Below, one piece after another: positions 1 through 64,000 of a stretch of DNA of 64,000 nt. Under the pieces are notes generated by a model that saw only the letters and a list, made by a program, of their open reading frames with translations, had not been told where the DNA came from and searched no databases. A program made the translations under genes and the position numbers. Position 1 is the stretch's first letter. The number at the start of each line of letters is the position of its first letter. The DNA is from Edaphobacter lichenicola (GTDB taxonomy: Bacteria; Acidobacteriota; Terriglobia; Terriglobales; Acidobacteriaceae): assembly GCF_025264645.1 (NCBI RefSeq), contig NZ_CP073696.1, positions 4,340,001-4,404,000 of the forward strand, in the 5' to 3' direction.

Positions 1-1341
1 CGATTCCACCAACAGCGCCCCCATCCGGCTCACCATCCCAGGCTTCGACCCCGCCGTCGTCAGCCATCCTGCAACGCCTGCCTGCCCATACACTCGCGCA
101 TACCGCTCCACACTATCCAGATAAGCAAGCACGCCAGCTCCATGATTATTCCTCTCCACAGCAATCGTCGCCCCGCCATACTCTCTCGCCAGCTCCGCCG
201 AAACCCTCGCCAGCTCCAGCGTCCCCAACCTCTGCTGCAACTCCGCACACTGCATCCCGGATCCCATCTCAATCACCTGCACCGCAGCAAAATCACCATC
301 GGCCCCACCGCCGGCGGTATCCACGGCAACCACATATTCCTTCCCGGCAATCGGCGGCAACCAAACCTGCAAAGCGCCTCCGCGCCGCGTCTCCACAGGC
401 CCTCCCAACTCAGCAAGCCGAGCCTCTACGGTCGAAACCTCAAAGCAACACTCACCCGTAGCCTTGAAGCAGCTCTCCGCATCCTCTGCAAACTCCTGCG
501 ACCGCAGCCCCCGATAGCTCATCTCCAGCCCCCGCCGAAACCCAATCTGCTCTGCAGTCAAACCATGCGCCGACACGAGCCGCCGCTCATCCTCCCTCAG
601 ATCGCCCACTGGCGCCCCAACATAAGCCTCTTCCATCCACCATGGAAAAAAATGCCGCACCACATCGTCACTCAGACAGTCTGACCCGCCAACCCCCAGC
701 TCAACGCCGCGCCCCCACTCCTCATAGAAACAGCCGTAAGCTCCATTCGGCGTCGACTCCATCACCATCTCGCCACCTGGCACCAGCGCCGCCCGCAACC
801 CGGCAAGCGCCGCCCCTGCATCTCCCGGCCATCGGCTCACCTCGCTGCAGTGCAGATACTGCACCGTCAACCCTCGCCCCGCGCTCTCATCCGCAGCACT
901 CACGACACGAAACTCGCTATCCAACTCCGGAAAACACATCTGCCCCGCATTCGCTCGACTTCGCCGCAGCGGCCCCTCCCGAAGCTCAACCGGCAGACAC
1001 TCCCAGAACCGCTGCACCATCCGAAAGATCCCCTCTGCAGCCTCTCTCGTCTGTGCCACCTGCACCGTCATCACACCACGCGCCGTAATCGTCTTCAGAA
1101 AAAATCGCCCGGCCACCCAAGTCGTAATCCCCATCTGCCGAGCCTTCAGCACAATGTTCTGACGCCCGCGCCTCCGTTCAAACTCCCTCTGCACCGCATT
1201 CGCCCGCAGCGGCCTCTCCACGCCCTCACGATCCCGAACCCTCAACAAACCCTCAGCCACATGCCGCAAAGCTGCTGGCTGCAATTCCATATACTTCCCC
1301 AGCATCAGCAGCTCCTCGACATCCATTGGAGCCTTACCCAT
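1..1341 (-). CDS. Phage terminase large subunit (TerL), 3' end cut by window edge
   Basis: This is the ATP-driven DNA-packaging motor and headful/cos nuclease. The first 447 residues are visible and the frame is still open at base 1. Walker A-like ARQMGITT is at residues 67-74, a Walker B-like VQYLHCSEV near 160-168 with E167, and the coupling motif STPNG near 196-200. The RNase H-like nuclease domain shows VVAVDTAGGG with D341 and AVERNNHG with E395. The ATG at 1341 is preceded by GGGGGA at good spacing; an in-frame ATG at 1380 has a poorer site. It lies downstream of the tail fibre gene, which is an unusual place for a terminase. Confidence 0.9.
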   Translation of the reverse strand, partial: MGKAPMDVEELLMLGKYMELQPAALRHVAEGLLRVRDREGVERPLRANAVQREFERRRGRQNIVLKARQMGITTWVAGRFFLKTITARGVMTVQVAQTREAAEGIFRMVQRFWECLPVELREGPLRRSRANAGQMCFPELDSEFRVVSAADESAGRGLTVQYLHCSEVSRWPGDAGAALAGLRAALVPGGEMVMESTPNGAYGCFYEEWGRGVELGVGGSDCLSDDVVRHFFPWWMEEAYVGAPVGDLREDERRLVSAHGLTAEQIGFRRGLEMSYRGLRSQEFAEDAESCFKATGECCFEVSTVEARLAELGGPVETRRGGALQVWLPPIAGKEYVVAVDTAGGGADGDFAAVQVIEMGSGMQCAELQQRLGTLELARVSAELAREYGGATIAVERNNHGAGVLAYLDSVERYARVYGQAGVAGWLTTAGSKPGMVSRMGALLVES

Positions 1342-1415
1342 TCCATCCCCCAACCAATCACAACGTAGGTGCGGCCTCATCCTTATCAGAGCGAAGCCGC
1401 ACCCAAGTTCAACCT

Positions 1416-4400
1416 CTACATCTCCCAGTGACAACCCGATACCGTCTTTGGATTCGGCACATCGCGGAACGTCAATGAGCCATTCGCAGCAACCGGCACC
1501 ACCGTCCCCACCGAAAGCCCGTTGATCAGCTGCGACGAACTTCCCGCAACCACACCCACCGTAAAGGCAGACTGCAGATTCGCCACCGTATACACCGCCC
1601 CACTCTGCCCCGTGCAATCCGGCAGCGTCAACGTCTGGTTCCCTGTCGGAGCCGCCGTGACGTAGCCATCGCCGGCCGTCATGGCATAGGTCGCCGCGGT
1701 CACCACATGCGGGTTCGCTGCCGTAGAGCCGAAGTAGTAGTTCAGTGCATTACTGGCCTCCACAGCAAGCAACAGCTGCCCGGCCGCCGTCGGATGCGTA
1801 TGATCCCCTTGAAAGTAGGTCGCGTTCGCATTGGCTCCATCTGCACCGAGCAGCGGATTCGCAGCAAAGTCAATCACGCCATCCGCGCCAACCCTCTGCG
1901 CATTCTGCAGCATCAGCGCATCGTAAGAATCCTTCGAAGCGTCCAGACCGGTGCGCGAGATCATTGTTCCCACAAATGCCCTGCAGCCCGCCTTCTTCAC
2001 CGTCTGAACCCAGCTCGACAACCGCCCGAACACAGTCTCCAGCGTTGCAGACGACGCAAAGTCGTTCGTTCCCGCGAACCCAATAGCGATCGAAGGTCCG
2101 TTGAGCGTGCTGCAAAGCGTGCCCACTCTGTTCGGTTCAGACCCTGCAATCGCGCCAAAGCTCACCCCAGCCAACCCCATGTCGACAACTTGATAGCTCG
2201 GCTGATTCGTCAATGCCAGGTTGAACGGCCATGCCTGCGTCGCCGGATTCGCGGTACCGAGTCCATACGTAATCGAATCCCCTACCGCAAACAACTGAGG
2301 GCTCACCTGCACCACCGGGACCGGCGTCACCGGTACAGAACGGGAGTTGATGTCATTCAGAATCTTCTGATAGTTGCCCTGCACCGTAGCAGGACTATCT
2401 TCTGTTGCCGAAAACACGGCGCGGTAGAAAATCCCGTTGAAGCCCGATCCGTTAAAGAAACCGGTGTTCGGTGCGCCAAGCAGGAAGTTCCCAGAACCCT
2501 GGGCCCCGAAAGACCCCTGTTGGAACGCATAGGGAATTTCAACTCCATTGATGTAAAAACGATCCACATCCCCGCTTATTCCGTTGCCCAGCGTGACCGT
2601 CAATATGTTGAAGCCTGAAATAAACAAGCTGGACATACTGCTGTAGTTGCCATTTGCAACCGTTCCAGGAGCAAATGCCGGCAGTGTCCCTTGATCCTGA
2701 CTGCTGCTCGTAATAATATTCACTCCCGTATTTCCCAAAGAGCTTCCCACCAGCATTGGAAAGCTCTGTGGAACGAACTGCGCCGCATTCGTCGGTAAGG
2801 GATTCAGATAAAACGCCAGGTAAAAAGTCCGTGTATTGTTCAGTGTCGCCGGCAGACTAACGTTCTCCGGAAGACTGAAGCTCAACCCACCATTCACCCA
2901 AGCTGGAGCGTTAGCACCTGTCCCCAGTGTGCCGTTATTGCCGTTGCCCGTGTTGTCGGTCAACACCGTCCCCGTTCCTTGCAGAAAGTTATAGTCAGCC
3001 GTCGCTCCTGCAATCGGTGCAGCGCCACTTGGTAACGACGATCCTACCGACTGTCCCCCCGAACCCGAACTTCCAGGAACTGCCCATGTTCCATCCTCTC
3101 GCAGATACCGCGTCGCCCCTGCCGTTGCGCCAGGATCCGGCACCGCTCCCCGTGCATGACCGCTCCCCGAAGCGACAAACAAGGGAAGCTGCGCCGCACC
3201 CACCGCGCCATTCAACGTCGTCGCATTCACCGTTCCTGCATTGATCGTTCCAGCCGTGAACGCCTGCGGGCTAAATTGATAACTGGTACCCCGCATACTC
3301 ATCTGCAGCGTGCTCGTCGTCGGCTGAAACGTCAACGTGTCGATGCTTGCTTCGCTGTCCAGTTCAAACAAATCGTAGCCCGAATTCCACTTGCCGCAAC
3401 CATGCGAGTTGCAGTGAACTGAGAACACGCTCTGTTGACCAGCTTGCATATCCATCGTTCGCTGCCAGACGCCTGTTGCGGAATACGCAGCAAACGGTGC
3501 AGTATGCGTACCACCATTGCCAAAGTAGCTCGTCGCCGGGACTGTGTTTGAGATGGTCCAGCCGGTCATGCCTGGCCCAACGTTCTCCTGGTATTGAAAT
3601 CCAGATGTCTGCGAAACCGTCGGTCGCGGCGTTACCTGTCCGACAAACGAGATATCGCCAGCGATCTGCTGTTGGTAGTAGTGTGGCTCCTCGACCGCAT
3701 CGTTCGCGCTCCAGGCCACCGTGTTCGGCGCAAGTGTCAACTGACCATCGACAGTATTTGTCGCCGTATCGAAGACACCTAGAACCTCCGCCATTGGATA
3801 CAGAACATACCCACCCGTAAGCTTCGATACAGTACCGCCTGAGCTTGTACTATTCGCTCCGGCCTGCGCATACGTCAGCGCATTCGATGCCGTTGAAGTC
3901 ACCACAAAGCTACCGTTGTAACTCTGGTCCGCAACACCCGAGATGGTCATGGTCAAACCATTCACATCCACCGGGAGCGCACCCGCAGTCGTAACCGTGA
4001 CCAACCCGTTATTTCGTGCGATTACGGTGATCTGCGCCGTCAAATTAACAAACGAACTGGTGTTCGACTGCACACCTACAATCGCAGCCAACCCGCCCGC
4101 ATAGTACAGTCCAGTCGAAGAGGAAGATCCAATCACCGGAAATATCTGGCGAATTGATCCCACTGTGTCTACAGTCTGCTCCAACCCATACCCGCATAGT
4201 CCACCAAACGCGATCGTTGATCCCGCACGGTGCGGTTTGTTCAAAGTCATCTGTAGATGAGTTCCATCGACGACCGAATACTTCGCCATCTCGTAGTTAT
4301 GCGGTTCAGTGCTCACAGGCTGGTCCACAACGCATGCCACGCCGCTCGGACTCGGAACTGCCGCCGTACTCGTCGCGAATCCCGCAGTCACTCCGCTCGT

Positions 4401-6050
4401 TGCGATCGGCACCGTCACAACTCCTGGAGCAGCATTCTGCGCCTGAGAAGGAATCAACTGAGCCGTAGCAAGAAACACACTCACAGGAAAGTTCGTTCCA
4501 CTGAAGGTTGCACTGGCTCCAGGAACCCCACTGACCTGTCCCGTCCCGCCAGTCAGGCTGCCGATCGTAATCACCTTCGCCGGATTTTTGTCGATCAGGT
4601 ATCGTCCCTCACCCTGTGTCCCGGCACCAGAGGTCGTCGCAACCGTCACGACGGTCGATCCCGCTGTACAGCCCACGCTGCAGGTTCCTTCAAAGACATT
4701 CGAGTCTTCTTGAAATTGCAAATCGAACGGATGTGCCCCCTCGTCCGCTTCATCGCGAAATCCACCAGAAGACACAATGAACTGCGATCCAATCAGGCAA
4801 TCCCCAACCCCATAACAATCGATCACCTGAGAGTCGAGTATGTGCTGGCCCATCGTATTGTAGGTGCCTGTCACATTCATAGCGTTGTAGTTCGTCTTGA
4901 AGTAAGGCACACTCCCAAGCGAAGGGTCGAATATGTTCGACCCCCCCGTCAGGCCCTGGTGTTTGATCAACAGTGCAAACGAAGACGGATCGCTCGATCC
5001 GCCCGCCGCAACCTCGGCCGCAGAGCTTCGTGTTGAACTCACATCGACGACCTGACCCGCGTCTTCTCCATTCTGGAGCGAAGAAGTTGGATTCATGTAG
5101 ACGTCACGCCGCTGTCCGTTCCGGTCATCCTCCACATGGGTACCGCCAGCAGTACCTGTCCCGCTGTTCCACGTCGTTGACAGGTAATTTTCAGATGCCG
5201 TATAGCTGCGGTCCACCTTTACATCGCAACCCTTCGCGCAATCAGTACTGGTCACGGCATTCGCGATTCCATTTCCACCCGTCACCCCGCTGACATACTG
5301 ACTCGCATACTCCTCGCCGTTCAAAATGTTGACCTGCAACTCAGTGCCTACAGGTTGCGACACCACCTGCGAAGTCGCAGGCAACATTGAAACTTTCTGC
5401 CCTGATCCCGCCGCCACACTGGCCACATTCACATCGACGTAGTGCTTATCTGCGGCTTGATTCGGAGTCGTTGGGTCTCCTGGCAGCACGAGAGGCCCAG
5501 TCATCGTGTCCCCTGTCTTCTCCACAAATGGATTCGTGCTGTCCAGAGGGTGCCCGGTCACCGCTGCGGCAATCGCCGTGTCCACGTAGCTCTTGCTAAC
5601 CGTCTGCATCGCAACAGACGTCGGCAATACGGTACTCTCGATCGCGCTTACCTGCACGGGGACCTGGCTTACAGGAACAACCCAGAACTGCCGGCTCACG
5701 CTCCCATCACTCAAATGATAGATCGCCGTGTAGTAAGTTCCCATCGGAGTCGATCCGGCATTCGGAATCAACTGCAGACTCAGAGCGCCCGCCGTAATCG
5801 TAGCGGACGTGGTACCACTCGGCACAGACTCTCCGCTCGCAGTGGTAAACGCCTGCCAGCTTACAATCACAGTTCCCGTCGCCGGCGTCCCATCGCCCAG
5901 GAAAACCGTATCTGTAATCTGCGTCGTAGCAATTGTTCCAGTTGAAGCGGTCTGCATCGCTGCGGCCGCCTTCATCAATGTCATCGCTCCCGGAATAACC
6001 AGCAGCAGCATTCCGATCAGCGTCCATCCCCTAGCCTTCCAATGCATCAT
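1416..6050 (-). CDS. Phage tail fibre/tailspike with LamG-like and SGNH esterase domains
   Basis: This 1544-residue protein is probably a receptor-binding fibre or spike. Residues 1-33 look like a signal peptide or membrane anchor (KAR followed by a hydrophobic run and AAAA). Residues about 150-205 carry fibre-type blocks with YVDTAIAAA and GDTMTGPL. A long serine/threonine/glycine-rich beta region follows. About 1020-1235 resembles a LamG jelly roll. About 1250-1425 is an SGNH hydrolase: block I GDSITYG, block III GTND and block V GDHTHP are all present, so the esterase is probably active and may deacetylate host surface glycan. GAGGAG lies seven bases before the tandem ATGATG. It could instead be a host-secreted adhesin, but its position inside the phage operon argues otherwise. 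Confidence 0.75.
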   Translation of the reverse strand: MMHWKARGWTLIGMLLLVIPGAMTLMKAAAAMQTASTGTIATTQITDTVFLGDGTPATGTVIVSWQAFTTASGESVPSGTTSATITAGALSLQLIPNAGSTPMGTYYTAIYHLSDGSVSRQFWVVPVSQVPVQVSAIESTVLPTSVAMQTVSKSYVDTAIAAAVTGHPLDSTNPFVEKTGDTMTGPLVLPGDPTTPNQAADKHYVDVNVASVAAGSGQKVSMLPATSQVVSQPVGTELQVNILNGEEYASQYVSGVTGGNGIANAVTSTDCAKGCDVKVDRSYTASENYLSTTWNSGTGTAGGTHVEDDRNGQRRDVYMNPTSSLQNGEDAGQVVDVSSTRSSAAEVAAGGSSDPSSFALLIKHQGLTGGSNIFDPSLGSVPYFKTNYNAMNVTGTYNTMGQHILDSQVIDCYGVGDCLIGSQFIVSSGGFRDEADEGAHPFDLQFQEDSNVFEGTCSVGCTAGSTVVTVATTSGAGTQGEGRYLIDKNPAKVITIGSLTGGTGQVSGVPGASATFSGTNFPVSVFLATAQLIPSQAQNAAPGVVTVPIATSGVTAGFATSTAAVPSPSGVACVVDQPVSTEPHNYEMAKYSVVDGTHLQMTLNKPHRAGSTIAFGGLCGYGLEQTVDTVGSIRQIFPVIGSSSSTGLYYAGGLAAIVGVQSNTSSFVNLTAQITVIARNNGLVTVTTAGALPVDVNGLTMTISGVADQSYNGSFVVTSTASNALTYAQAGANSTSSGGTVSKLTGGYVLYPMAEVLGVFDTATNTVDGQLTLAPNTVAWSANDAVEEPHYYQQQIAGDISFVGQVTPRPTVSQTSGFQYQENVGPGMTGWTISNTVPATSYFGNGGTHTAPFAAYSATGVWQRTMDMQAGQQSVFSVHCNSHGCGKWNSGYDLFELDSEASIDTLTFQPTTSTLQMSMRGTSYQFSPQAFTAGTINAGTVNATTLNGAVGAAQLPLFVASGSGHARGAVPDPGATAGATRYLREDGTWAVPGSSGSGGQSVGSSLPSGAAPIAGATADYNFLQGTGTVLTDNTGNGNNGTLGTGANAPAWVNGGLSFSLPENVSLPATLNNTRTFYLAFYLNPLPTNAAQFVPQSFPMLVGSSLGNTGVNIITSSSQDQGTLPAFAPGTVANGNYSSMSSLFISGFNILTVTLGNGISGDVDRFYINGVEIPYAFQQGSFGAQGSGNFLLGAPNTGFFNGSGFNGIFYRAVFSATEDSPATVQGNYQKILNDINSRSVPVTPVPVVQVSPQLFAVGDSITYGLGTANPATQAWPFNLALTNQPSYQVVDMGLAGVSFGAIAGSEPNRVGTLCSTLNGPSIAIGFAGTNDFASSATLETVFGRLSSWVQTVKKAGCRAFVGTMISRTGLDASKDSYDALMLQNAQRVGADGVIDFAANPLLGADGANANATYFQGDHTHPTAAGQLLLAVEASNALNYYFGSTAANPHVVTAATYAMTAGDGYVTAAPTGNQTLTLPDCTGQSGAVYTVANLQSAFTVGVVAGSSSQLINGLSVGTVVPVAANGSLTFRDVPNPKTVSGCHWEM

Positions 6051-6165
6051 CGTTCTCCTCGTTCCGTTCCCACTCGTTCACAACTCGCGGATCCCACTCC
6101 CTCGCGAACTTCAGGCGCAAAGCTGCCACGCCCGACCGCACATACAGCGGCATTGCCGCTATCAT
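6031..6165 (-). CDS. Small phage protein overlapping the fibre start
   Basis: A 44-residue ORF with ATG at 6165 is preceded by GGAAGG at seven bases and ends in TAG inside the first codons of the fibre gene, in another frame. That overlap suggests translational coupling. The product is charged (RLKFAREWDPRVVNEWERNEEN) and has no recognised family. It fills the otherwise empty space between the tail protein and the fibre. It is short enough to be chance, so the call rests on its ribosome site and packing. Confidence 0.4.
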   Translation of the reverse strand: MIAAMPLYVRSGVAALRLKFAREWDPRVVNEWERNEENDDALEG

Positions 6166-6228
6166 GCAGCTGCCTTCCACCCATCAACCTTCTTGTGCGT
6201 CAGTCACCGCTGCACAACGAACCAGCCC

Positions 6229-7215
6229 TCACACCGCTCGCATGGCGCCCGGCAGATAACTGCGAAAACACAAAACCGTCTCGCCGTCATTCGCATCCTT
6301 CACAGGCAGCGCCCGAAACGCGCCCGCCAGCTTCACCCGCTCCAGCGGCCCTGCCAGTTCCTCCACCATCTCTGCCGAACCTTGCATCGCCTGCAGCCTT
6401 GGGTAGTGATAGATCACCCGATCACCTTGCTCCCCATCCATCACAAACAAACCCGACCACTCTTGAAAGAACCCACCGCCCTCGCGGTCCACAAAACCCA
6501 CCAGCGGACTCACCTGCATTCCACTCGGCGGAGCTCCCGCCAGCAGCGCGGCACCCAACTGCAAGCTGCCATTCGCGATCCCCACGACGCGCCCTACATT
6601 CAAAGTCACCCGGCGAATGTAGTTGATGTCATTGGCCACGGACGCCGGAGAACTGACATAAGCTGCACTTACACCGCTCCCTACAAACCCTGTCTGCGCG
6701 ACATAATCCTCATCGACGGCGACCAGTTCACCAACCTGAAACTGGGCCGCCGCCGTCGCCCCCACATTCAACGAAGTGGCCGTAGATCCAGCCAACAGCT
6801 GAGTCGCTGTCGCGGCCACGCCGCCACTTCCATTCGCTGCCGCACCATTCGCAGTCTGCAACAGGTTCATCTGTTGCGAACCCGATGCCAACGCTAGCTG
6901 CAGCTTCCCCCAACTCGCAAACTCAAGCTGCACCGTTGCTTCTACCTGGGTCACAACCTGGCTTTGCACGACCGCTGGAGCCCCTGTCATGAGCGCTCCA
7001 ATCTTCGTCGCACTCTTCCGGGCAAAATTCGAGCACCATCCCAGATCAATCCACGGCGCAGGTGGCGCACTCAAAGCGAACGTCCCCATCTGCGCCGCGT
7101 CAAACAACGTAGGCACTCCCGCATCTCGATTCACCGGTGCGAAATAAGCTCTCACTCGCCGCGTCACCGGAGCCACCGCCCCAACCAGACTCACTGCCGT
7201 CACCGTCGTACTCAC
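6229..7215 (-). CDS. Phage tail protein, probable tail-tube-like structural protein
   Basis: A 328-residue protein of alanine, glycine and valine-rich beta character with no signal peptide or membrane segment. The GTG start at 7215 overlaps the stop of the upstream gene by four bases (GTGA), so the two are translationally coupled. Its place after the connector genes and before the fibre is where a tail tube or major tail protein normally lies. I do not recognise a specific family; a baseplate or decoration protein is an alternative. Confidence 0.55.
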   Translation of the reverse strand: MSTTVTAVSLVGAVAPVTRRVRAYFAPVNRDAGVPTLFDAAQMGTFALSAPPAPWIDLGWCSNFARKSATKIGALMTGAPAVVQSQVVTQVEATVQLEFASWGKLQLALASGSQQMNLLQTANGAAANGSGGVAATATQLLAGSTATSLNVGATAAAQFQVGELVAVDEDYVAQTGFVGSGVSAAYVSSPASVANDINYIRRVTLNVGRVVGIANGSLQLGAALLAGAPPSGMQVSPLVGFVDREGGGFFQEWSGLFVMDGEQGDRVIYHYPRLQAMQGSAEMVEELAGPLERVKLAGAFRALPVKDANDGETVLCFRSYLPGAMRAV

Positions 7216-7724
7216 AGCTCACCCACTTCCTGGTAGCTGAAGACCTCGACCGTCGCCACCCGTTCCAGTCGCTCTCCATTCGCCACCGCAGCTCCAAACG
7301 CCGCATCATTCCAAAAGACGTTCGTCGTCAGCGCCACTGGCGCCAAACCCGACCCGCCCGCAGCACCAACATAGTTCATCTTCATCGCATGATGCGGCAC
7401 CGCGCCCAATGCCGTCACCAGCTCTGCATCCATCCCCGACAGCAGCCGCCCCCGATCCATTCCTCCATTGCCCGAGTCTCCATCGGTCGCATACCGTATC
7501 TCACACACCATCGTCACCAGCGGCAGCGCGCCCTGTGTGTCCACACTAAGCCCTGCCCACTGCAGACAAAACACATTCACCGGCATAGTCGCAGAAGCCA
7601 GCTCGTTCTCCTCCACCAGCACGCCAGGCCGCGTTACTCCACGCAACACCATCGTTCGTGCCGGATTTATAGCCGCCAGCCTGTCGCGCAGCGTGACATA
7701 AAACGTATCCCTAGCATTCTGCAT
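7212..7724 (-). CDS. Phage neck/tail completion-type protein, unknown family
   Basis: A 170-residue soluble protein. The N-terminal segment MQNARDTFYVTLRDRLAAINP and the middle region resemble the size and composition of tail-terminator or minor tail proteins, which sit between head-tail connectors and the tail tube. The site AAAGG lies eleven bases before ATG. The stop overlaps the GTG start of the next gene. The function is inferred from order only. Confidence 0.5.
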   Translation of the reverse strand: MQNARDTFYVTLRDRLAAINPARTMVLRGVTRPGVLVEENELASATMPVNVFCLQWAGLSVDTQGALPLVTMVCEIRYATDGDSGNGGMDRGRLLSGMDAELVTALGAVPHHAMKMNYVGAAGGSGLAPVALTTNVFWNDAAFGAAVANGERLERVATVEVFSYQEVGEL

Positions 7725-7761
7725 TTATATGTAACCTTTCTAGTGTTATTTACGTCCGCAA

Positions 7762-8193
7762 CTAAACCACCAACGCCAGTGGAGCGCGCAGCACCAGCCG
7801 ATACACATAGGTAGCGCCTCCCACCTCCGACTCCGTAGCCGATTCAATCTCCATCAGCACCTCATCGATCAGCACGCCAAATGCTGTAGCAAACAGCACA
7901 TTTGCAGCCGAGTAGCCCATCGAGCCGACCAGTGCATTCACCGCCGTCGCCGAAACCATCAGCTCGCTCGTCGCCGCCTTCCCATCGGCGATGGTTGCGC
8001 GCGCCTTCCGAAACACCACAGGCTCAAGGGCCACATCCTGAAACGACGGAACCGCCAGCCCCAATTGTTCCGTTGTATCTCCCGAGCTAGCCGGTGCTGG
8101 CATCCTCAATAACACCGACCTCCCCCCGCCACATCGCAGCAGAACATCCGCCGCCCGCTGCGCTATGATCGACGCATCCCGTAACTCTCCCAT
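7762..8193 (-). CDS. Phage head-tail joining-type protein, unknown family
   Basis: A 143-residue protein beginning MGELRDASIIAQRAADVLL if the ATG at 8193 is used. That start lies directly after the TGA of the upstream gene (8198-8200) with GAGGCG close by; an alternative start at 8220 overlaps the upstream gene. Residues near the C-terminus (VGGATYVYRLVLRAPLALVV) suggest a beta-rich neck protein. The assignment to head-tail joining comes from its place between a connector-like gene and tail genes. Confidence 0.5.
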   Translation of the reverse strand: MGELRDASIIAQRAADVLLRCGGGRSVLLRMPAPASSGDTTEQLGLAVPSFQDVALEPVVFRKARATIADGKAATSELMVSATAVNALVGSMGYSAANVLFATAFGVLIDEVLMEIESATESEVGGATYVYRLVLRAPLALVV

Positions 8194-8197
8194 CGCC

Positions 8198-8822
8198 TCA
8201 CCCCAGCCTCTCCGCCACATAGGGCCTCAGCAACAGCTGCACCTGCGGATCAATCAGAGACCCGCTGAAGTACTGCATCTGCATCGTGTCCATCTTGCTC
8301 GACTTCACATTCATCGCCGGGGTCGCCTGCGCATTCTTCACAATCTGCACACACGCAACCTTCACCGCATCGGGGATCGTCGCCAGCCCCGACGTATATG
8401 TGGCCTCAACCTCGTTGTAATCCAACCCGAGAAAGTTTGTCGGGAATGTCAGCTCTGCTGTCGTCTCGTTTACATCCACCGTTGTCACATCCAGCGAACT
8501 CCAGCTTCCCGGGACGCTGAAGGCCCGCGCGATCTCCTCACGAAACGGATCCGGCAACTCCCCTCGTCTCTTCTTCCCGAACCGAACTCGTATCTCAACC
8601 AGTGCAGAAGGCGCTCCCACTGACGCTGCCAGCGGACGATAGCTCAGCCGAACCGTCTGCGCTCCACTCGTCAGCCGCATCCGCTCCACATACTGTGTCA
8701 CCAGCAAACTCGGCCGCCGGCAATAAGCCTCCATCAGCGTAGAGGCCATCGTCACCCCAATCATCCGTAGTCTCCGCCGTCAGGCCATACTGCACATACT
8801 CCGTCGGCAACAAATAACCCAT
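8198..8822 (-). pseudogene. Head-tail connector-like gene with a single-base frameshift
   Basis: The natural start appears to be ATG at 8822 (MGYLLPTEYVQYGLTAETTDDW). After that tryptophan the frame is lost at a run of four G on the coding strand (CCCC at 8755-8758). Removing one G joins it to VTMASTLMEAYCRRPSLL and gives a continuous 207-residue protein. Without the correction the second part could only start inside, at 8764 or later. The length and the mixed helix/beta layout fit a gp6-like connector. This may be a true mutation, ribosomal slippage, or a sequence error in the homopolymer. Confidence 0.65.
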
Positions 8823-8845
8823 CGCAAGCCCCTCTCAAAAAGCAA

Positions 8846-8874
8846 CAGGGACCGGCACAAAATACCGGCCCCTG
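8846..8874 (-). terminator. Terminator-like hairpin after the capsid gene
   Basis: A ten-base stem with one mismatch (CAGGGRCCGG paired with its complement) has a nine-base AT-rich loop. On the minus strand it is followed by TTGCTTTTTG. It lies between the capsid stop (8975) and the connector start (8822), so it could trim the abundant capsid transcript from the downstream genes. Confidence 0.6.
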
Positions 8875-8974
8875 TAATCAGCTCACAGCTCTAGATCTGC
8901 AGCCGCTTCCAAGTACGCCAAGACTTCAGCCTCGGCGTTCTCGATTCGGCGTACCCGTTGGTTTAGCTTCAGAC

Positions 8975-9946
8975 CTAGCGGTCGACCAGAACTTGATAGT
9001 GCGCATAGCTCGCGCCCTTCACAACCACGCCGCCGAACTTCACGACAACGTACTGCGAAGCCAGCGAACCAGGGACGCCAAGTTGGAAGATGCGCGGGTT
9101 CGGATCGCTCAGCCAGTGGTACTCGATCAGGTCCTCAGTAACGATGTAAGCCGGAAGCACAGCCGAACCTGAACCAGGAGTACCCGTAAAGCTCAACGTC
9201 CATTCAGGAATTAGCGGAATATCTCCAGCCTGAGTCGAAAGCGTCTTCACAGTAAGGCCCGCTGCAATCTCCTTCGTGTTCAACACGACGTTGAACTCCG
9301 TCTTCATCTCGCGATCGATCAGATCCAGCAGTACAGGATTCGCATAGATCGCCGTAGGACGAACGCCGAACGAGCTGTTCGAAACCATCTGTGCAATCGT
9401 CGACTTGAAGCCGTCAACGATGCTCGCGTTCGTGCCGATCGAAATGGTATTTCCGCCTGCTGCAATCTGTGCGCCTGCTCCAAAGTACTGCGGAGTCGTC
9501 GGCGAGCTCAAGCTGGTGTCAGTGCCGTTCCACAATGCAACATCATGCGTGCGCAAAACTCCATCAACAGTATCGGCAAGGTCTTTCGCCTGCAGATACG
9601 CAAACTGACTCTGCTGCTGACCCAGCTCCATATCAAACAGGTTGTAGTTGATCTGTGCAACCAGAGCCTTCAACGGTACGCTGTTCTCCACGCGCGTCGG
9701 GCTCACCAGCGGAGCAATAATGTTGCGCGGGTCCACAAAGCCCGTACCCGCGGCAGGGGACGGAATTGAAGTCTCTTCAAAGTAGCGTGAAGGATGGCCA
9801 GTAGCTGGCACTTGCTTAATTCTCTGCCCAAAGATACCCCGGCGTCGAACAAGATCTAGAATCTCTGTCTGGTACAACGGAACTTCAATCGCACCAGGTC
9901 CAATGAAGTCCGCTGCGCCATGAATATAGGTAAATTTCGCGTTCAT
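8975..9946 (-). CDS. Phage major capsid protein, HK97-fold type
   Basis: The 323-residue protein fits the main shell protein of a tailed phage. It has an N-terminal MNAKFTYIHG segment, a P-loop/E-loop region rich in glycine and proline (residues about 60-85), a helix-rich middle with QINYNLFDMELGQQQSQFAYLQ, and a beta C-terminus ending YAHYQVLVDR. The ATG at 9946 has GGGAGA at a five-base spacing; the longer frame reads through a hairpin and is rejected. No N-terminal delta domain is attached, which fits a separate scaffold encoded just upstream. It is flanked on both sides by hairpins, consistent with a separately adjusted expression level. Confidence 0.75.
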   Translation of the reverse strand: MNAKFTYIHGAADFIGPGAIEVPLYQTEILDLVRRRGIFGQRIKQVPATGHPSRYFEETSIPSPAAGTGFVDPRNIIAPLVSPTRVENSVPLKALVAQINYNLFDMELGQQQSQFAYLQAKDLADTVDGVLRTHDVALWNGTDTSLSSPTTPQYFGAGAQIAAGGNTISIGTNASIVDGFKSTIAQMVSNSSFGVRPTAIYANPVLLDLIDREMKTEFNVVLNTKEIAAGLTVKTLSTQAGDIPLIPEWTLSFTGTPGSGSAVLPAYIVTEDLIEYHWLSDPNPRIFQLGVPGSLASQYVVVKFGGVVVKGASYAHYQVLVDR

Positions 9947-9960
9947 CTTTCTCCCTTTCA

Positions 9961-9989
9961 AACAAAAAGGTGCAGCCGCAGCTGCACCT
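9961..9989 (-). terminator. Hairpin with T tract in the capsid leader
   Basis: A perfect nine-base stem AGGTGCAGC / GCTGCACCT with a four-base loop (9968-9989) is followed on the minus strand by TTTTTGTTT. The capsid ribosome site begins only about ten bases farther on. It may be a terminator separating the scaffold and capsid transcripts, an attenuator, or a 5' stabilising hairpin. Confidence 0.55.
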
Positions 9990-10053
9990 GCTAAAACCAA
10001 TGACGGTTTTTTATTAAGTCCGAAGCATGTCTCACACTGGGGATGCGCGAACG

Positions 10054-10482
10054 TTAACCCAGCAGGCCAGCCTGCATCAACTGAGACTTCACTGCGATCC
10101 TCTGTTCAACGCTCAAACTCACAAGAGCAGCATCCACCGCTCCCGCCTCCATCGCATCTACCGTCACACCCTGCTTCGCCAGCAGGTTCACCATGGAGGC
10201 AGGAAGAGTCTTCCGTCCATGTGTAACCTCGGCAGGTACAGAATGCGCCGCGGCAGCTTTTAGCTCTGCGATCTGAGCTTCAGCCGCAGCCAGCTTCTCT
10301 TCGAGCTCAGCCTCACGCTGTCTCTCAACCGTAGCGACAATCCGGCCAATCGAAGCCTCGGCATCCAGCGCAAAATCGTTCTGTCGTTGTGCCAGCCGTT
10401 CTACTGCCTGCTCAAGCAAACCAGCTGCCGCAGCCAACCGTTCCACTGTGCTTCCCAGTTCGTCTTTCATCTTCATCTCCAT
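10054..10482 (-). CDS. Coiled-coil protein, probable phage scaffold
   Basis: A 142-residue, highly charged, alanine/glutamate-rich protein. Residues about 5-75 form a predicted long helix or coiled coil (EREAELEEKLAAAEAQIAELKAA), and the C-terminal part carries a short hydrophobic helix (MVNLLAKQGVTVDAMEAGAVDAA). ATG at 10482 follows GAGGAAGCA; an upstream in-frame ATG at 10506 lacks a site. Its place directly before the capsid gene and its composition match phage scaffolding proteins, but no specific family is recognised. Confidence 0.55.
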   Translation of the reverse strand: MEMKMKDELGSTVERLAAAAGLLEQAVERLAQRQNDFALDAEASIGRIVATVERQREAELEEKLAAAEAQIAELKAAAAHSVPAEVTHGRKTLPASMVNLLAKQGVTVDAMEAGAVDAALVSLSVEQRIAVKSQLMQAGLLG

Positions 10483-10533
10483 TGCTTCCTCGCCTTTCTC
10501 TTCCATCAATCAGTCCACCCACTGAACCCTCGT

Positions 10534-10932
10534 CTAAGCCGCGCTTGTTGCAGTGCCTGCAGGACTCTGGCCATTCTGCACATTCAGAATCGCCACCACA
10601 GCAGAAACCACGTTAGAGATATAGGTACTATCTGCAGTGATCCCAGCCTTCGCCAACAATGCAGCAACCGACTGCTCGGTCAGTAGCATCACCTCTGAAA
10701 GCTTCTGCGCCCCGGTCCCATTCTGCACACCCGAAGCTGCATACTTCTGCTCCACCAGCAGCACCGCTGTCTGTATCAGCGAAGTAGCATCGGCTACCTC
10801 GTTTGCCACCGGAGCAGCCGCAGGAAACAGTAGCCCCGCCAGCCTCTCTACGGGAACGGCATACTCCACCGCCCACTTCAGCCCTTTTGCGAAACCTTTA
10901 CCGATCGTCTCCATCACGCTCACGAAACTCAT
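10534..10932 (-). CDS. Small phage protein of unknown function, possible holin or head protein
   Basis: A 132-residue protein starting MSFVSVMETIGKGFAKG; the ATG at 10932 has GAGGAG at a five-base spacing. It contains a moderately hydrophobic stretch around residues 28-45 (LAGLLFPAAAPVANEVADA) and a second hydrophobic end (ISNVVSAVVAILNV). The middle, EQKYAASGVQNGTGAQKL, faintly recalls LLH-type phage holins, but no clear two-segment membrane topology is seen. It sits in the head gene block. Confidence 0.4.
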   Translation of the reverse strand: MSFVSVMETIGKGFAKGLKWAVEYAVPVERLAGLLFPAAAPVANEVADATSLIQTAVLLVEQKYAASGVQNGTGAQKLSEVMLLTEQSVAALLAKAGITADSTYISNVVSAVVAILNVQNGQSPAGTATSAA

Positions 10933-10979
10933 TCCATCTCCTCGTCTTGCCGTTGCTTCTTCTTCGTTCAACGCACCCA

Positions 10980-11606
10980 CTACCGACCCACGGCCACCCG
11001 TCGCCCGGCATTCACCGGCCGCTTCAAATGAAAGCTAGTGCTCCGGTAGGCCGCTTTCTCCCGCAGCAAAATCGCTGCACCGGTAAACGTCGCCCGAGTC
11101 AGAGTCCAGACCTGCGCCCGCATATCCGCCACATGCGCATCCGCCAGCTCATAGCTCATCCCCATCGCGCCATCGACCTGGATCTTTGCCTCCATCTCCG
11201 GAAAGTCCCGCGCAAAGAGATAACCCGCCACCGTTAGCTTCTGCCCGTCGATCTCAGCCGAAGTAATAATGCCGCACTTTTGCCTTGCGTCATGACCATC
11301 CCATCCCGCCTTGTAGTCGACAGCCATACCCAGCAGACTTGGCAGTGCGGTCTCCGCGGCCGATCGAGTCAGCACCACACGATGCCCACGCGACCCACTT
11401 GGAGCCTTGTCGCTGGCCACATCCACCAGCGTCAACACACCTTCAAACGGCAACCGGTTCGGATGTCCATGCACCACCGGAAATTCCACCGCCATCGCCC
11501 GCATCTGCAAGCCGGCCCCACCTCGCAAACCGTCCCGACTGCTCGTCCGTTCCGGTAATCCAGCAAGCCCGAAACTCCGCCGATGAAGCCCTTCCGAGTG
11601 TCCCAT
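10980..11606 (-). CDS. Putative prohead protease-like protein
   Basis: A 208-residue protein with ATG at 11606 behind GAGGAGGT. Residues about 60-165 show the layout of prohead maturation proteases: VDYKAGWDGHD with candidate catalytic histidine or aspartate, a KCGIIT strand, then GAMGMSYEL with a candidate serine, and WTLTRATFTGAAILL. The N-terminal 45 residues are basic and may be cleaved. The place upstream of scaffold and capsid supports the idea. The catalytic residues are guessed by eye and the assignment needs structural comparison. Confidence 0.45.
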   Translation of the reverse strand: MGHSEGLHRRSFGLAGLPERTSSRDGLRGGAGLQMRAMAVEFPVVHGHPNRLPFEGVLTLVDVASDKAPSGSRGHRVVLTRSAAETALPSLLGMAVDYKAGWDGHDARQKCGIITSAEIDGQKLTVAGYLFARDFPEMEAKIQVDGAMGMSYELADAHVADMRAQVWTLTRATFTGAAILLREKAAYRSTSFHLKRPVNAGRRVAVGR

Positions 11607-11762
11607 TGCACCTCCTCTATTTTCTAAGCCCAACACGCACACCTGCCCTCGTTCCGCAGAACATAGCGGTCGCCTTGTTTTTCAGCCGCTACATCCAACG
11701 AACCCGCCACGTTCGCCCGAACAACCAGGACCAACGCCCAACCACCCAGGAATTTCTCTTGC

Positions 11763-12092
11763 CTACTTCTCCGGTTGTCTCGACAGACTTTCAAGCAGCT
11801 TCCCCACAGCGCTCTTCCCCCGCCGCTTCTTCCGTTCGGGCATCTCACCCTTGTCCAGCCCACCCAGATTCGTCAGCATCTTCGCATGCGCAATGCTGCC
11901 CTTCTTGGCCTCCTCTACAAACCGATCCACAATCTCCGGCAGCGCCTCCGCCACCTTCGCTCGTGTGAACGTCCTACAGGAATTGGGCCGCGGTCCACCT
12001 GCAGCCGAAGCCTTACTCTCCGCTGTCTGGGCACCGCTCACCCCGTCCAACCCCTGACGCACAAACCGACCTGCCACCCGTTTCCGTTCCAC
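11763..12092 (-). CDS. First gene of the phage operon, possible small terminase or packaging accessory
   Basis: A 109-residue basic protein. A GTG at 12092 lies six bases after GGGAGGAG and is preferred over the TTG at 12107. Residues about 50-80 form a helix with VDRFVEEAKKGSIAHAKMLTN, a pattern I associate with small proteins near terminases. The C-terminus is lysine/arginine-rich (ERKKRRGKSAVGKLL). It directly follows the tandem repeats. Confidence 0.45.
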   Translation of the reverse strand: MERKRVAGRFVRQGLDGVSGAQTAESKASAAGGPRPNSCRTFTRAKVAEALPEIVDRFVEEAKKGSIAHAKMLTNLGGLDKGEMPERKKRRGKSAVGKLLESLSRQPEK

Positions 12093-12112
12093 CTGGTCTC
12101 CTCCCAAAGCAA

Positions 12113-12143
12113 ACGGGAGAGCAGCCGCCAGGCGCTCTCCCGT
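12113..12143 (-). terminator. Hairpin of repeat unit 1
   Basis: A ten-base GC-rich stem is followed by TTTGCTTT on the minus strand; the other side is CTCATTTCTTT, so it could act in both directions. It lies just ahead of the ribosome site of the first structural gene. Confidence 0.6.
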
Positions 12144-12324
12144 CTCATTTCTTTACTACCTTTCCAGAATATCAACTGGCGCATAACTAATACGCCAACT
12201 TTGCAAAAGAATTATCTGTAATTGAAACAGTTACTTATATCGAAATCAACACAATCGCCCTCTTGACAACTTTTCGTTGCGACCGTGAAACGCCTCAATC
12301 TCGACCGCTCTCGCAAAAACAAAC

Positions 12325-12352
12325 AGGAGAGCAGCCGCCAGGCGCTCTCCCG
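12325..12352 (-). terminator. Hairpin of repeat unit 2
   Basis: This is the same stem as in unit 1 with one base change at the outer end (AGGAGAGC). On the minus strand it is followed by TTTGTTTTTG, an intrinsic-terminator-like tail. Confidence 0.6.
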
Positions 12353-12536
12353 TCTCATTTCTTTTACTACCTTTCCAGAATACCAACTGGCACATAACTA
12401 ATACGCCAACTTTGCAAAAGAATTATCTGTAATTGAAACAGTTACTTACATCAAAATCAACGCAATCGGCCTCTTGACAACTTTTCGGGGCAGCGTCGAA
12501 ACACCTCAATCTCGACCGTACTCGTAAAAAGCAAAA

Positions 12537-12565
12537 CGGGAGAGCAGCCACGAGGCGCTCTCCCG
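12537..12565 (-). terminator. Hairpin of repeat unit 3
   Basis: CGGGAGAGC pairs with GCTCTCCCG around an altered loop. The minus strand continues TTTTGCTTTTTAC. It is the first of the three met by a transcript coming from the regulator gene. Confidence 0.6.
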
Positions 12566-12652
12566 TTCGATTTTGGTACCTTACCAGATAGCAGTTGACG
12601 CATTCCTCATACGCCAACCTCAAGACAGAAATAACAACAAATGAAACAAGCG

Positions 12653-13147
12653 TTAGAGTACAGTTCCCGCTTCTTGGCTCGCTTTGGAAGGCTCCAGCAG
12701 GTTTCGTTCCAGGAAGATCTCCGTCAGCTCATCCAGCGCATCCGCATACCGCCGGTGCACTGTCCTCAGGCTCAACCCCAGTAAGCCAGCCGTCTCAGCC
12801 TGCGTAAACTCCTGCAGGGCGATCCGTCTCACCAGATGTTGTTGTCCTTCGTCGAGCTTTTTCAGGCAGCTCTCTACGTCGTGCACGAAGATCACCACAT
12901 CTTCGAAACTCTGCACCCGATAGTTCGTCACCTTTCCGCGAAACATCTCCCGGCCCAGTAAGGAAGGCGCTCGTCCCGCCTCCATCGACAGCTTCACATA
13001 CCGGCGCAGCAACCCTTCCGTATACTTCCGGTAGAACGCCAACTCCGGTGCCGTCTTCTTCTGCTCAACCACCTCAGGCAGCGTCTTCAAACGCGAAGGC
13101 GCAGCCGTAGCCCAGACCACAGGTAGAATTACCAGAGCTGCACTCAT
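12653..13147 (-). CDS. Sigma-70 region-4-like phage transcription regulator
   Basis: A 164-residue protein. Residues about 105-160 contain a helix-turn-helix of sigma region 4 type: FTQAETAGLLGLSLRTVHRRY followed by ALDELTEIFLERNLL. No region-2 domain is evident, so it more likely acts as a late-gene activator (ArpU/RinA-like role) than as a full sigma factor. The ATG at 13147 has GGAGGT five bases upstream and overlaps the stop of the zinc-ribbon gene as ATGA, which couples their translation. It faces the structural operon across the tandem repeats, so it probably drives that operon. Confidence 0.65.
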   Translation of the reverse strand: MSAALVILPVVWATAAPSRLKTLPEVVEQKKTAPELAFYRKYTEGLLRRYVKLSMEAGRAPSLLGREMFRGKVTNYRVQSFEDVVIFVHDVESCLKKLDEGQQHLVRRIALQEFTQAETAGLLGLSLRTVHRRYADALDELTEIFLERNLLEPSKASQEAGTVL

Positions 13148-13356
13148 CGCACACCTCCAGCTACTCCCACTGCCGGTGTACATCCCGAGACCCGTGCTAG
13201 TGGTCGTCTCCGGCCTCCAGCATGTTTGCCTCGCGGTGACGGAAACTCCGCCAGTCGCCCAGCGCAGCCCCGGCAGTACACACCGTCTGCTCCCATGCGG
13301 AGCCAAAGCGCTCCACACCCTTCACATACCTTCAGTTCCATGCGCAAGTAGTTCAC
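13144..13356 (-). CDS. Small zinc-ribbon protein coupled to the phage regulator
   Basis: A 70-residue protein with a clear CxxC...CxxC zinc ribbon: CEGCGALW and YCRGCAGRLAEFP. The rest is basic (GGRRRPLARV). The GTG at 13356 has GGGA at a five-base spacing; a later ATG at 13341 is possible. The stop overlaps the next start by four bases. It probably helps control transcription, but no partner or target is shown by the sequence. Confidence 0.6.
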   Translation of the reverse strand: MNYLRMELKVCEGCGALWLRMGADGVYCRGCAGRLAEFPSPRGKHAGGRRRPLARVSGCTPAVGVAGGVR

Positions 13357-13824
13357 TTTGTTCCCTTTCAAAGCGTGCTTCTCCCCCGGCAAACCTCGAT
13401 TTTTTCAATGGTCGAGTGGGCCTGCCCGAGCTGCTATGGAACGCCGCCCGCCTGTTCGCAGAGCTCTATGGCTCCGTCAACCACGCGCCAGCATTCATCT
13501 GTTGTTGATCAGTGCGCTTGTAGTACCTTGGGAAAAATTGAATCCACCCTACATCCCATCCACTCAGGCCCCAGATTGCAGTTGCTCTCTTGCTCTTGCA
13601 GACAACGTTGCGGCTCCTTTGCAGCTCTGTTTCCCATAATGGAAAGTCTCAAGGTTATAGCTTTCGACAAAACTGCTGTCAACCTGAATCTTTCCTCAGG
13701 CTAACGAACGTCGTAAATCCCACATTAGCAGTAGGATGGGCAAATGAAGTTATTGCATCAAGCGAATACTTCGCTAAAAATTCGCCTTGTCAAATGATAT
13801 AGATCACCATGGAAACCCTTTAGG
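13357..13824. other. Divergent control region, no convincing gene
   Basis: This 468-base stretch lies between the divergent zinc-ribbon/regulator pair and the repressor. Short open frames on the plus strand lack ribosome sites and family resemblance. Apart from the operator described separately, I see only AT-rich stretches near 13640-13800. Confidence 0.5.
13761..13793. promoter_or_regulatory. Candidate repressor operator overlapping a leftward promoter
   Basis: AGCGAA-TAC-TTCGCT (13761-13775) is a perfect palindrome, and a further TTCGC half site is at 13781. On the minus strand TTGACA (13788-13793) lies 17 bases before a weak AGTATT, so the palindrome overlaps a possible leftward promoter. 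A plus-strand transcript for the repressor would also start nearby (TATAGA at 13798). Layout is that of a lysogeny switch; binding is inferred. Confidence 0.45.
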
Positions 13825-14541
13825 ATGAACTTTCAAGACCTCCACGAACTCCTCCGGCTCGAACTCCTCCGACGCATCGACCGGGGCACTCTCACTCAGA
13901 GCCGTCTCGCCCAACAGACCGGGTTCCAGCAAGCCCACATCTCGAACTTCCTCAACCGCAAGCGCGCCCTCTCGCTCGAAGGTCTCGACCGCGTTCTCGC
14001 CTCCCAGAACCTCTCCATCGACCAGATCCTCCCACTCGACCTCACCGCCGCAGCCATCCCCCCACCCACCCAGACCAGCGATCCCATCGAGATCATTCCC
14101 GTCGTCTCCCCTTCGGCCGCCATGGATGACGCCCGCATCTCCCCAGCCTCCATCATAGAGACCATCCAGGTCTCCGCCTCCCGCCTGCACGACAACCGCG
14201 CACGCCCATCCACGCGCCACGCCCACTGGCAGCGCTTCCTGGCTATTCGCGCTGACACCCAGCAATCCGCCGCCATGGACCCGCTTCTGTCCCCCGGAGC
14301 TATCGCCGTCCTCGACCGCCACTACAACTCACTCTCTCCCTACCGCGCCCACCAGCCCACGCTCTATGCCGTTCGTTGCGGCGCCGCCCTCCTCCTGCGC
14401 TTCGTCGACTTCGATGAAGGCCGCCTCATCCTCCGCCCCTACTCACGCGACTTCCCCGTACAGCTCCTTCCTCTCGCCACCCACGAAACCCCCGGCGACT
14501 ACATCGTCGGCCGCGTCTGCCTCGTCTTCTCCGAGCTCTAA
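13825..14541 (+). CDS. XRE-type CI-like repressor with a degenerate S24 domain
   Basis: A 238-residue protein. Residues about 8-70 form an XRE helix-turn-helix (LTQSRLAQQTGFQQAHISNFLNR). The C-terminal part, about 150-238, has the layout of the LexA/CI S24 domain (AAMDPLLSPGAIAVLDRHY, then VRCGAALLLRF). Alanine stands where the catalytic serine should be, and arginine replaces the lysine, so self-cleavage looks impossible. It is divergent from the zinc-ribbon/regulator pair and is the likely repressor of the element. The ribosome site is weak (TTTAGG next to ATG). Confidence 0.7.
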   Translation: MNFQDLHELLRLELLRRIDRGTLTQSRLAQQTGFQQAHISNFLNRKRALSLEGLDRVLASQNLSIDQILPLDLTAAAIPPPTQTSDPIEIIPVVSPSAAMDDARISPASIIETIQVSASRLHDNRARPSTRHAHWQRFLAIRADTQQSAAMDPLLSPGAIAVLDRHYNSLSPYRAHQPTLYAVRCGAALLLRFVDFDEGRLILRPYSRDFPVQLLPLATHETPGDYIVGRVCLVFSEL

Positions 14542-63558: not shown

Positions 63559-63572
63559 ATAGGTTTGCAGAC

Positions 63573-64000
63573 GGCCCGTAAGCCGAATTCTGTTTTAGAC
63601 GATCATTCCTCTACGCGACGCATTACTGCGGCGCTTTAGCAACCTACCCGCAAGTTTCGGCTCCCAAACCATTGATAAATCAACAGCTGGATCCCTCCGC
63701 CTAAGCGCATCGGGCCGATACGCTCCTGCCGCCTGGAGAGAAGCGGCAAGATCCCTGCCTATTTGGTCTTGCTCCGTGTGGGGTTTACCCTGCCGCGGTC
63801 ATTACTGGCCGCGCGGTGCGCTCTTACCGCACCTTTTCACCCTTACCTCAAGCCGCTTGCGGATCTACCGAAGCAGATCACCAACTTGAGGCGGTTCCTT
63901 CTCTGTTGCACTTGCCGTCCAGATGGCTTGAACCATCCGTCCCGGACGTTATCCGGCACACTGCCCTGCGGAGTTCGGACTTTCCTCCCCCGCCCAACGC
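63573..64000 (-). ncRNA. rnpB: RNase P RNA (type A), 5' end cut by window edge
   Basis: The minus strand carries the conserved core at both ends: GAGGAAAGTCCGAACTCCGC (63968-63987), near the 5' side, and ACAGAATTCGGCTTAC (63578-63593) close to the 3' end, with which it pairs as helix P4. Between are GGGTGAAAAGGTGCGGTAAGAG and the GCAAGACCAAATAGG block. The molecule is the catalytic RNA that matures tRNA 5' ends. Only a short 5' piece (P1) should lie beyond base 64000. Confidence 0.93.

Follow-up and report, generated by a model that had tools for sequence, protein, structure and literature searches.

Three tandem units, spaced by about 211 bp, lie between a sigma-region-4-like regulator gene and a phage-like operon in the window (the whole 64,000-nucleotide stretch of Edaphobacter lichenicola DNA that was analyzed), and each unit carries a promoter-like part followed by a terminator-like hairpin. 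The units, the regulator gene, and the operon are all on the minus strand, which is referred to here as the sense strand. From its sequence, this arrangement is probably a late promoter kept shut by its own terminator until an antiterminator resembling Q, AlpA, or GafZ opens it. The features, in window coordinates, are as follows.

1416 to 11642, minus strand: phage-like genes, including orf220, orf148, orf151, a putative capsid (341 aa), a phrog_442 head-tail adaptor, a fibre-like protein bearing a GDSL domain, and others
11763 to 12107, minus strand: orf114, the first gene of the operon, with a GTG start 19 nt past the proximal hairpin
12103 to 12198, minus strand: unit B2, proximal and intact, with its TTGGC box from 12198
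12174 to 12166, minus strand: extended -10 of unit B2, TGATATTCT, with the proposed +1 near 12159, a position taken from the alignment of related loci
12144 to 12112, minus strand: terminator hairpin of unit B2, with a U-rich tail to 12103
12313 to 12409, minus strand: unit B1, middle and intact, with its TTGGC box from 12409
12385 to 12377, minus strand: extended -10 of unit B1, TGGTATTCT, with the proposed +1 near 12370
12354 to 12322, minus strand: hairpin of unit B1, with a U-rich tail to 12313
12527 to 12617, minus strand: unit A, distal and decayed, with its TTGGC box from 12617
Within unit A, minus strand: decayed -10, TGCTATCTG, which is the motif minus one base
About 12565 to 12537, minus strand: hairpin of unit A, with a U-rich tail
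12653 to 13147, minus strand: sigma-region-4-like regulator, 164 aa, with its ATG at 13147; proposed Q-like antiterminator
13144 to 13356, minus strand: small cysteine-rich ORF whose CEGC...CRGC pattern looks like a zinc ribbon by eye; it runs into the start of the regulator gene
13654 to 13682, minus strand: TTGACA-N17-TATAAC, by eye a consensus-like sigma-70 promoter for the small ORF and the regulator
13825 to 14541, plus strand: divergent protein with an HTH_26 (Cro/C1-type) domain; proposed repressor

A repeat search of the window returned a 180-nt direct repeat (12152 to 12331 and 12363 to 12542; 88% identity at a spacing of 211) together with three copies of a 49-nt hairpin repeat, which start at 12106, 12316, and 12529 (spacing 210 and 213) and of which the second and third are 96% and 78% identical to the first. 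These values bear out the first-pass annotation, which had described three tandem units, two of them near-identical and one decayed. That annotation called them hairpin units; the hairpins are there, but it missed the promoter-like part upstream of each one and the conservation of the units far beyond this genome. In intact units, an extended -10 (TGnTATTCT) is preceded by a box (TTGGC..A.TA.TT) at about -39 to -26, and the terminator follows about 21 nt after the -10. Within its own 5.66-Mb genome, the unit DNA had no further match at E 0.001, and the pattern TTGGC-N19-TGnTATTCT occurred exactly twice, at the two intact units. We rejected other target promoters as a candidate, as allowing one mismatch gave 6 matches in this genome, no more than the reversed-pattern control (6).

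As DNA, the unit was matched at E 0.001 in 20 of 61 genomes, all of the same genus (20 of 37 inside it, own genome included, and 0 of 24 outside). The regulator gene and orf220 adjoin the unit match in 18 of the 19 other loci, while L017 has neither, and a unit profile based on the genus matched 43 of 63 regions. Of 63 deduplicated loci, 54 have the pattern TGnTA[TC][TGC]CT within 200 nt of the regulator stop codon, although this pattern was written after inspection of many of these same loci. The pattern occurred in a mean of 0.74 loci (maximum, 3) in 50 shuffles, in 1/63 loci on the other strand, and in 2/63 at 300 to 500 nt. The window and L054 carry the motif further down, in the proximal unit, which brings the total to 56/63 and leaves 7 loci without it. 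These loci are mostly from Acidobacteriaceae; the exceptions are L096, which was taken from a collection of viral contigs, and L073 and L083, whose metagenome bins carry the label Rhodanobacteraceae. For a check set, 20 stretches were fetched later, 5 of which had no regulator match. The motif was present in 10 of the other 15 and, once three repeats already among the 63 (L168, L171, and L174) were removed, in 8 of 12 new loci, the remaining 4 being without it.

Alignment of the 54 loci, in which columns 0 to 8 are fixed by the search pattern itself, identified the -10 motif as the most constant part of the region. TTGGC ends 22 nt before the -10 hexamer and gives way to the looser A.TA.TT, the expected +1 (the seventh base after the hexamer) is a purine in 54/54 loci, and the stretch from the proposed +1 to the hairpin is short and A-rich. 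This layout would also fit the first-pass suggestion that the sigma-like regulator binds at the repeats, since the conserved box upstream of the -10 would be a natural site for that protein. Two further candidate elements were looked for. A -10-like pause element scored best at an offset of -1 to +5, without a clear sign of conservation (mean of 2.81 of 6 matches in 21 representatives). An upstream inverted repeat exceeded shuffles across all 60 sites (reached by 2 of 1,000 shuffles), whereas in 31 representatives it did not (reached by 607 of 2,000); because the signal is lost there, we regard the repeat as a genus-level feature only and not as a general RNA hairpin or operator.

By sequence, the hairpins are terminators. 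A single stem of -15 kcal/mol or lower with a T-rich tail was found on the sense strand at 59 of 62 homologous sites, to which some loci contribute two, compared to 2.9% of dinucleotide shuffles; the T-rich flank that had initially been noted for each hairpin is on this sense (minus) side. The hairpin begins a median of 21 nt after the -10, and this distance is nearly fixed. Stem sequences diverge freely while pairing is kept: among 22 distinct 7-bp stems, 154 of 154 positions were paired, versus a mean of 93 of 154 when arms were swapped. Pairing was read from predicted folds, so only this contrast is informative. On the opposite strand, 49 of the 62 sites likewise pass the terminator test, so the hairpins may act in both directions. 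It is conceivable, if quite improbable, that they mainly end transcripts from the regulator gene or, on the opposite strand, from outside, with the promoter-like motif being incidental or otherwise used. The intergenic position of the units would suit such a role, as would hairpins that at most sites have T-rich flanks on both strands. Yet the -10 motif is the most constant part of the region, and a terminator that follows a conserved promoter and precedes a gene by about 20 nt would block that very gene.

The position of the proximal hairpin relative to orf114 argues for read-through. In all 12 loci where orf114 follows the unit and its start could be placed, 17 to 23 nt separate the hairpin from the first start codon behind a purine-rich stretch, a distance set by the rule of our script (L008 has a likelier ATG at 29 nt). 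Such a gap leaves no room for a promoter, and the orf114 mRNA must thus pass through the proximal terminator. On this sequence evidence, an antitermination gate is the best supported of the three readings that the first-pass annotation had offered. The read-through argument fails in L007, L014, L022, L063, and L068, where orf114 was not recognized and orf220 lies hundreds of bases from the unit, so that another promoter could exist. Leader-peptide attenuation was considered and rejected: an ORF runs into the hairpin at 46 of 60 sites, but it has no constant start codon, position, or length (6 to 220 codons among the 40 sites listed).

A promoter and a terminator with little between them is also the anatomy of a small-RNA gene, and some units lie a long way from the next recognized gene. 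We nevertheless consider it very improbable that the units encode trans-acting regulatory RNAs of about 55 nt whose copy number sets the dose. Rfam covariance models found no family at gathering score at the units in the window, any such RNA would have only a short, A-rich stretch ahead of a hairpin whose sequence is free to diverge, and in 12 loci orf114 follows the hairpin directly. The small-RNA array proposed at first pass therefore gained no support of its own. The sole gathering-score Rfam match in the window is a class A RNase P RNA at 63563 to 64000, which is cut by the window edge.

One copy of the unit is usual, two are present in some close relatives, and three are present in this genome. 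A profile search for sense copies counted three in the window and two each in L002, L003, L004, L005, L053/L122, L121, L123, and L054/L124; the other 11 loci in this search have one unit each. We built a tree from sense units only, leaving out two duplicate loci. The middle and proximal copies of the window form a pair (support, 0.95) nested among the proximal copies of relatives with two units (0.87), while the distal copy of the window groups with the distal copies of L002 and L123 (0.95). The distal copy of L054 is on a long branch, apart from the other distal copies. Since the tree places the middle and proximal copies together among proximal copies, the third copy most likely arose by recent duplication of the proximal one, which agrees with the recent duplication suggested by the initial reading of the repeats.

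The regulator was found in 88 of 120 Acidobacteriaceae genomes, with one match each. It matches Sigma70_r4 (Pfam) and was aligned with 29 relatives, and its predicted model has a mean pLDDT of 71. The best structural match to sigma region 4 was 3hug (Z, 9.2; RMSD of 1.3 over 74 residues), and that to phage 21 Q was 6p18 chain Q (Z, 9.0; 102 residues; RMSD of 5.9), with five more Q21 entries at Z scores of 7.2 to 7.9; a Foldseek search with the same model returned nothing at E 0.001. By the rule of the tool, the two folds are tied, and the model resembles them about equally. Because a region-4-like fold also underlies Q21 itself, according to the accessible part of its report (PMC6606751), these matches suit a Q-like protein without proving one. 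Synonymous distances for the regulator were 0.58 to 1.39, versus nonsynonymous distances of 0.05 to 0.27 (five pairwise comparisons). No relatives were present in 50,697 phage records, and a single contig in IMG/VR carried the regulator.

These same features could suit a different function for the protein. In T4, the MotA/AsiA middle promoters have an extended -10 and no canonical -35, and they are activated at initiation. It is unlikely, although the main alternative, that the sigma-like protein is likewise an initiation activator that replaces or helps host sigma region 4, with a terminator that only damps leakage and that some polymerases pass. The box at about -39 to -26 is conserved near the place where region 4 binds, the regulator has a clear region 4 domain, and its top structural match is a sigma region 4 chain. 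However, a terminator kept at 59 of 62 sites, at a nearly fixed distance and with a free stem sequence, is hard to explain if it is purely costly, and the Q21 alignment is longer than those to region 4 chains, albeit with a higher RMSD.

In several relatives, a TTGACA..TTGTCAA dyad, identified by eye, overlaps the -35 of the regulator promoter. Upstream of both intact units, at 12259 to 12269 and 12470 to 12480 on the minus strand, there is a second conserved box, TTGTCAAGAGG, which resembles half of this dyad and may be a putative repressor site. The 8-mer TGTCAAGA occurs on either strand in 20 of 67 regions, versus 0.6 in shuffles.

The units precede a phage-like cluster of about 20 kb (G000:C1:4334116-4354541, equivalent to window positions 1 to 14541 plus L118:9116-17000). 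The terminase (phrog_2, E 5.5e-23; no Pfam or NCBIfam match) and portal (phrog_2662, E 3.9e-40; Phage_portal PF04860, E 1.8e-55) genes are to the left of the listed phage-like genes in the same cluster, and the end of the terminase gene reaches into the window. Genes for a HipA-like kinase and a DUF3037 protein lie between them (L118:12871-14882). The head-tail adaptor matched phrog_442 (E 2e-12), and the fibre-like protein, with a GDSL lipase domain, has 1,544 aa (window 1416 to 6050). In other genera, the fibre-like gene comes first after the unit and orf220 follows several kb on in 16 of 19 stretches. The capsid is putative and assigned by position alone; an assignment by fold or sequence was tried and dropped, with a mean pLDDT of 34.5 for the predicted model and no sequence match in the PDB. 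No integrase or replication genes were recognized among the listed cluster ORFs, part of which were searched with profiles.

The first-pass annotation had assumed a prophage, a label that is too weak for a cluster inherited family-wide. Of 150 genomes sampled from the order, 98 carry the putative capsid, each with one match, and all 98 belong to Acidobacteriaceae. Among 92 genomes with both capsid and hemB (own genome and the G194 fragment dropped; G010, G227, and G232 without a hemB match; the G242 fragment not entered), 56 have both genes on one contig, and in 38 of these 56 they lie within 50 kb. With hemB as the host marker, capsid and hemB identities are correlated (Spearman, 0.85 in 92 genomes; 0.84 in the 80 left after removal of 12 genomes with partial hemB matches), but since hemB is a neighbor, the correlation alone is also compatible with joint transfer. 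Synonymous distances for the capsid were 0.78 to 1.15, versus nonsynonymous distances of 0.03 to 0.06 (five pairwise comparisons); judged by these sequence distances, both capsid and regulator are under purifying selection. No capsid relatives were present in 50,697 phage records, whereas 27 contigs in IMG/VR carry the putative capsid. Neither a capsid nor a unit match was found in G025, whose hemB is 94% identical, or in G187, which is also among the nearest by hemB, indicating that the cluster is sometimes lost. Contigs L073, L083, and L075, which carry cluster genes, belong to metagenome bins labelled Rhodanobacteraceae or Verrucomicrobia. With respect to the criteria for a gene transfer agent (GTA), we found phage packaging and head genes, a single copy, vertical inheritance, and often one chromosomal place. 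The cluster is a domesticated phage, inherited and kept, and a candidate GTA, known here from its genes.

The units, the conservation of motif and terminator, the short gap after the terminator, the fold class of the regulator, and the inheritance of the cluster can all be read from the DNA; promoter activity, termination, repression, binding, antitermination, and an effect of copy number are what we infer from them. Starting at the extended -10 (TGnTATTCT), RNA polymerase with a host sigma factor would by default stop about 55 nt on, leaving a tiny RNA. Once the divergent repressor leaves its promoter, the sigma-region-4-like regulator would be made. Bound to the conserved box (about -39 to -26), it would join polymerase, which would then read through the terminator into the operon. 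Three tandem copies would provide several start points and up to three stops, and should thereby tighten the off state. A wider proposal is tentative, and we hold it with some doubt: the cluster may be an undescribed Acidobacteriaceae GTA, inherited beside hemB since early in the family, whose switch is a set of tandem self-terminated late promoters opened by a Q21-like antiterminator. The array would gain and lose units, the number of serial locks would set how rarely the system fires, and Caulobacter may have reached its three GTA terminator repeats independently.

If true, this reading means that promoter-loaded antitermination controls an inherited phage-derived cluster in Acidobacteriota, and two distant lineages may have reached stacked terminator repeats separately. 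The natural unit numbers (one, two, and three) offer a ready test of whether stacked terminators set the frequency of particle production. Promoter-loaded antitermination is already known as a kind. A literature search, partly at the level of titles, found no description of tandem whole promoter-terminator units or of a variable unit number, and none of a GTA or such a switch in Acidobacteriota; nor did the literature search return a described placement of such units before an inherited phage-like cluster in Acidobacteriaceae. The nearest reports, as far as their accessible text goes, are a prophage survey of Acidobacteriota (PMC5900883) and a peat-moss virome paper that describes Acidobacteriaceae phage-like contigs (PMC12142844).

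Three known systems are closest to the arrangement described here, and each is compared on the basis of the accessible portions of its reports. The Q system of phage 21 shares a regulator with a sigma-region-4-like fold and, at PR'-tR', a late promoter followed by an intrinsic terminator (PMC6606751). In that account, Q needs a -10-like pause element as well as its own element, which lies between the -35 and -10 (PMC6606751), whereas here the box is mostly further upstream, there is no clear pause element, and the units are three in tandem. AlpA of Pseudomonas aeruginosa is likewise a promoter-loaded antiterminator acting on an intrinsic terminator tens of nucleotides past a promoter and before the first gene; the reported distances from start site to terminator are 54 and 26 nt (PMC7969949). 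The AlpA -10-like pause element is placed at -1 to +5 (PMC9371919), which is also the best -10-like offset in our units, but with a weak score here. AlpA differs in driving lysis genes and in having its element between the -35 and -10, and the available sections of these papers contain no repeated promoter-terminator units (PMC7969949, PMC9371919). The GTA of Caulobacter crescentus (CcGTA; RogA, GafY, GafZ) also pairs a phage-like cluster with a repressor and a regulator with a sigma-like HTH, the regulators being likened by description. The available account of CcGTA gives RogA as the repressor and GafZ, with its sigma-like HTH, as an antiterminator whose element is within the promoter, and describes a strong terminator in which a 150-bp direct repeat occurs three times (PMC11150451). 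Both systems thus have three tandem direct repeats with inverted repeats that need to be read through. In Caulobacter, as described there, the 150-bp repeats come after the first gene, apart from the promoter, whereas the 211-bp repeats found here each carry a promoter-like part and precede the first gene.
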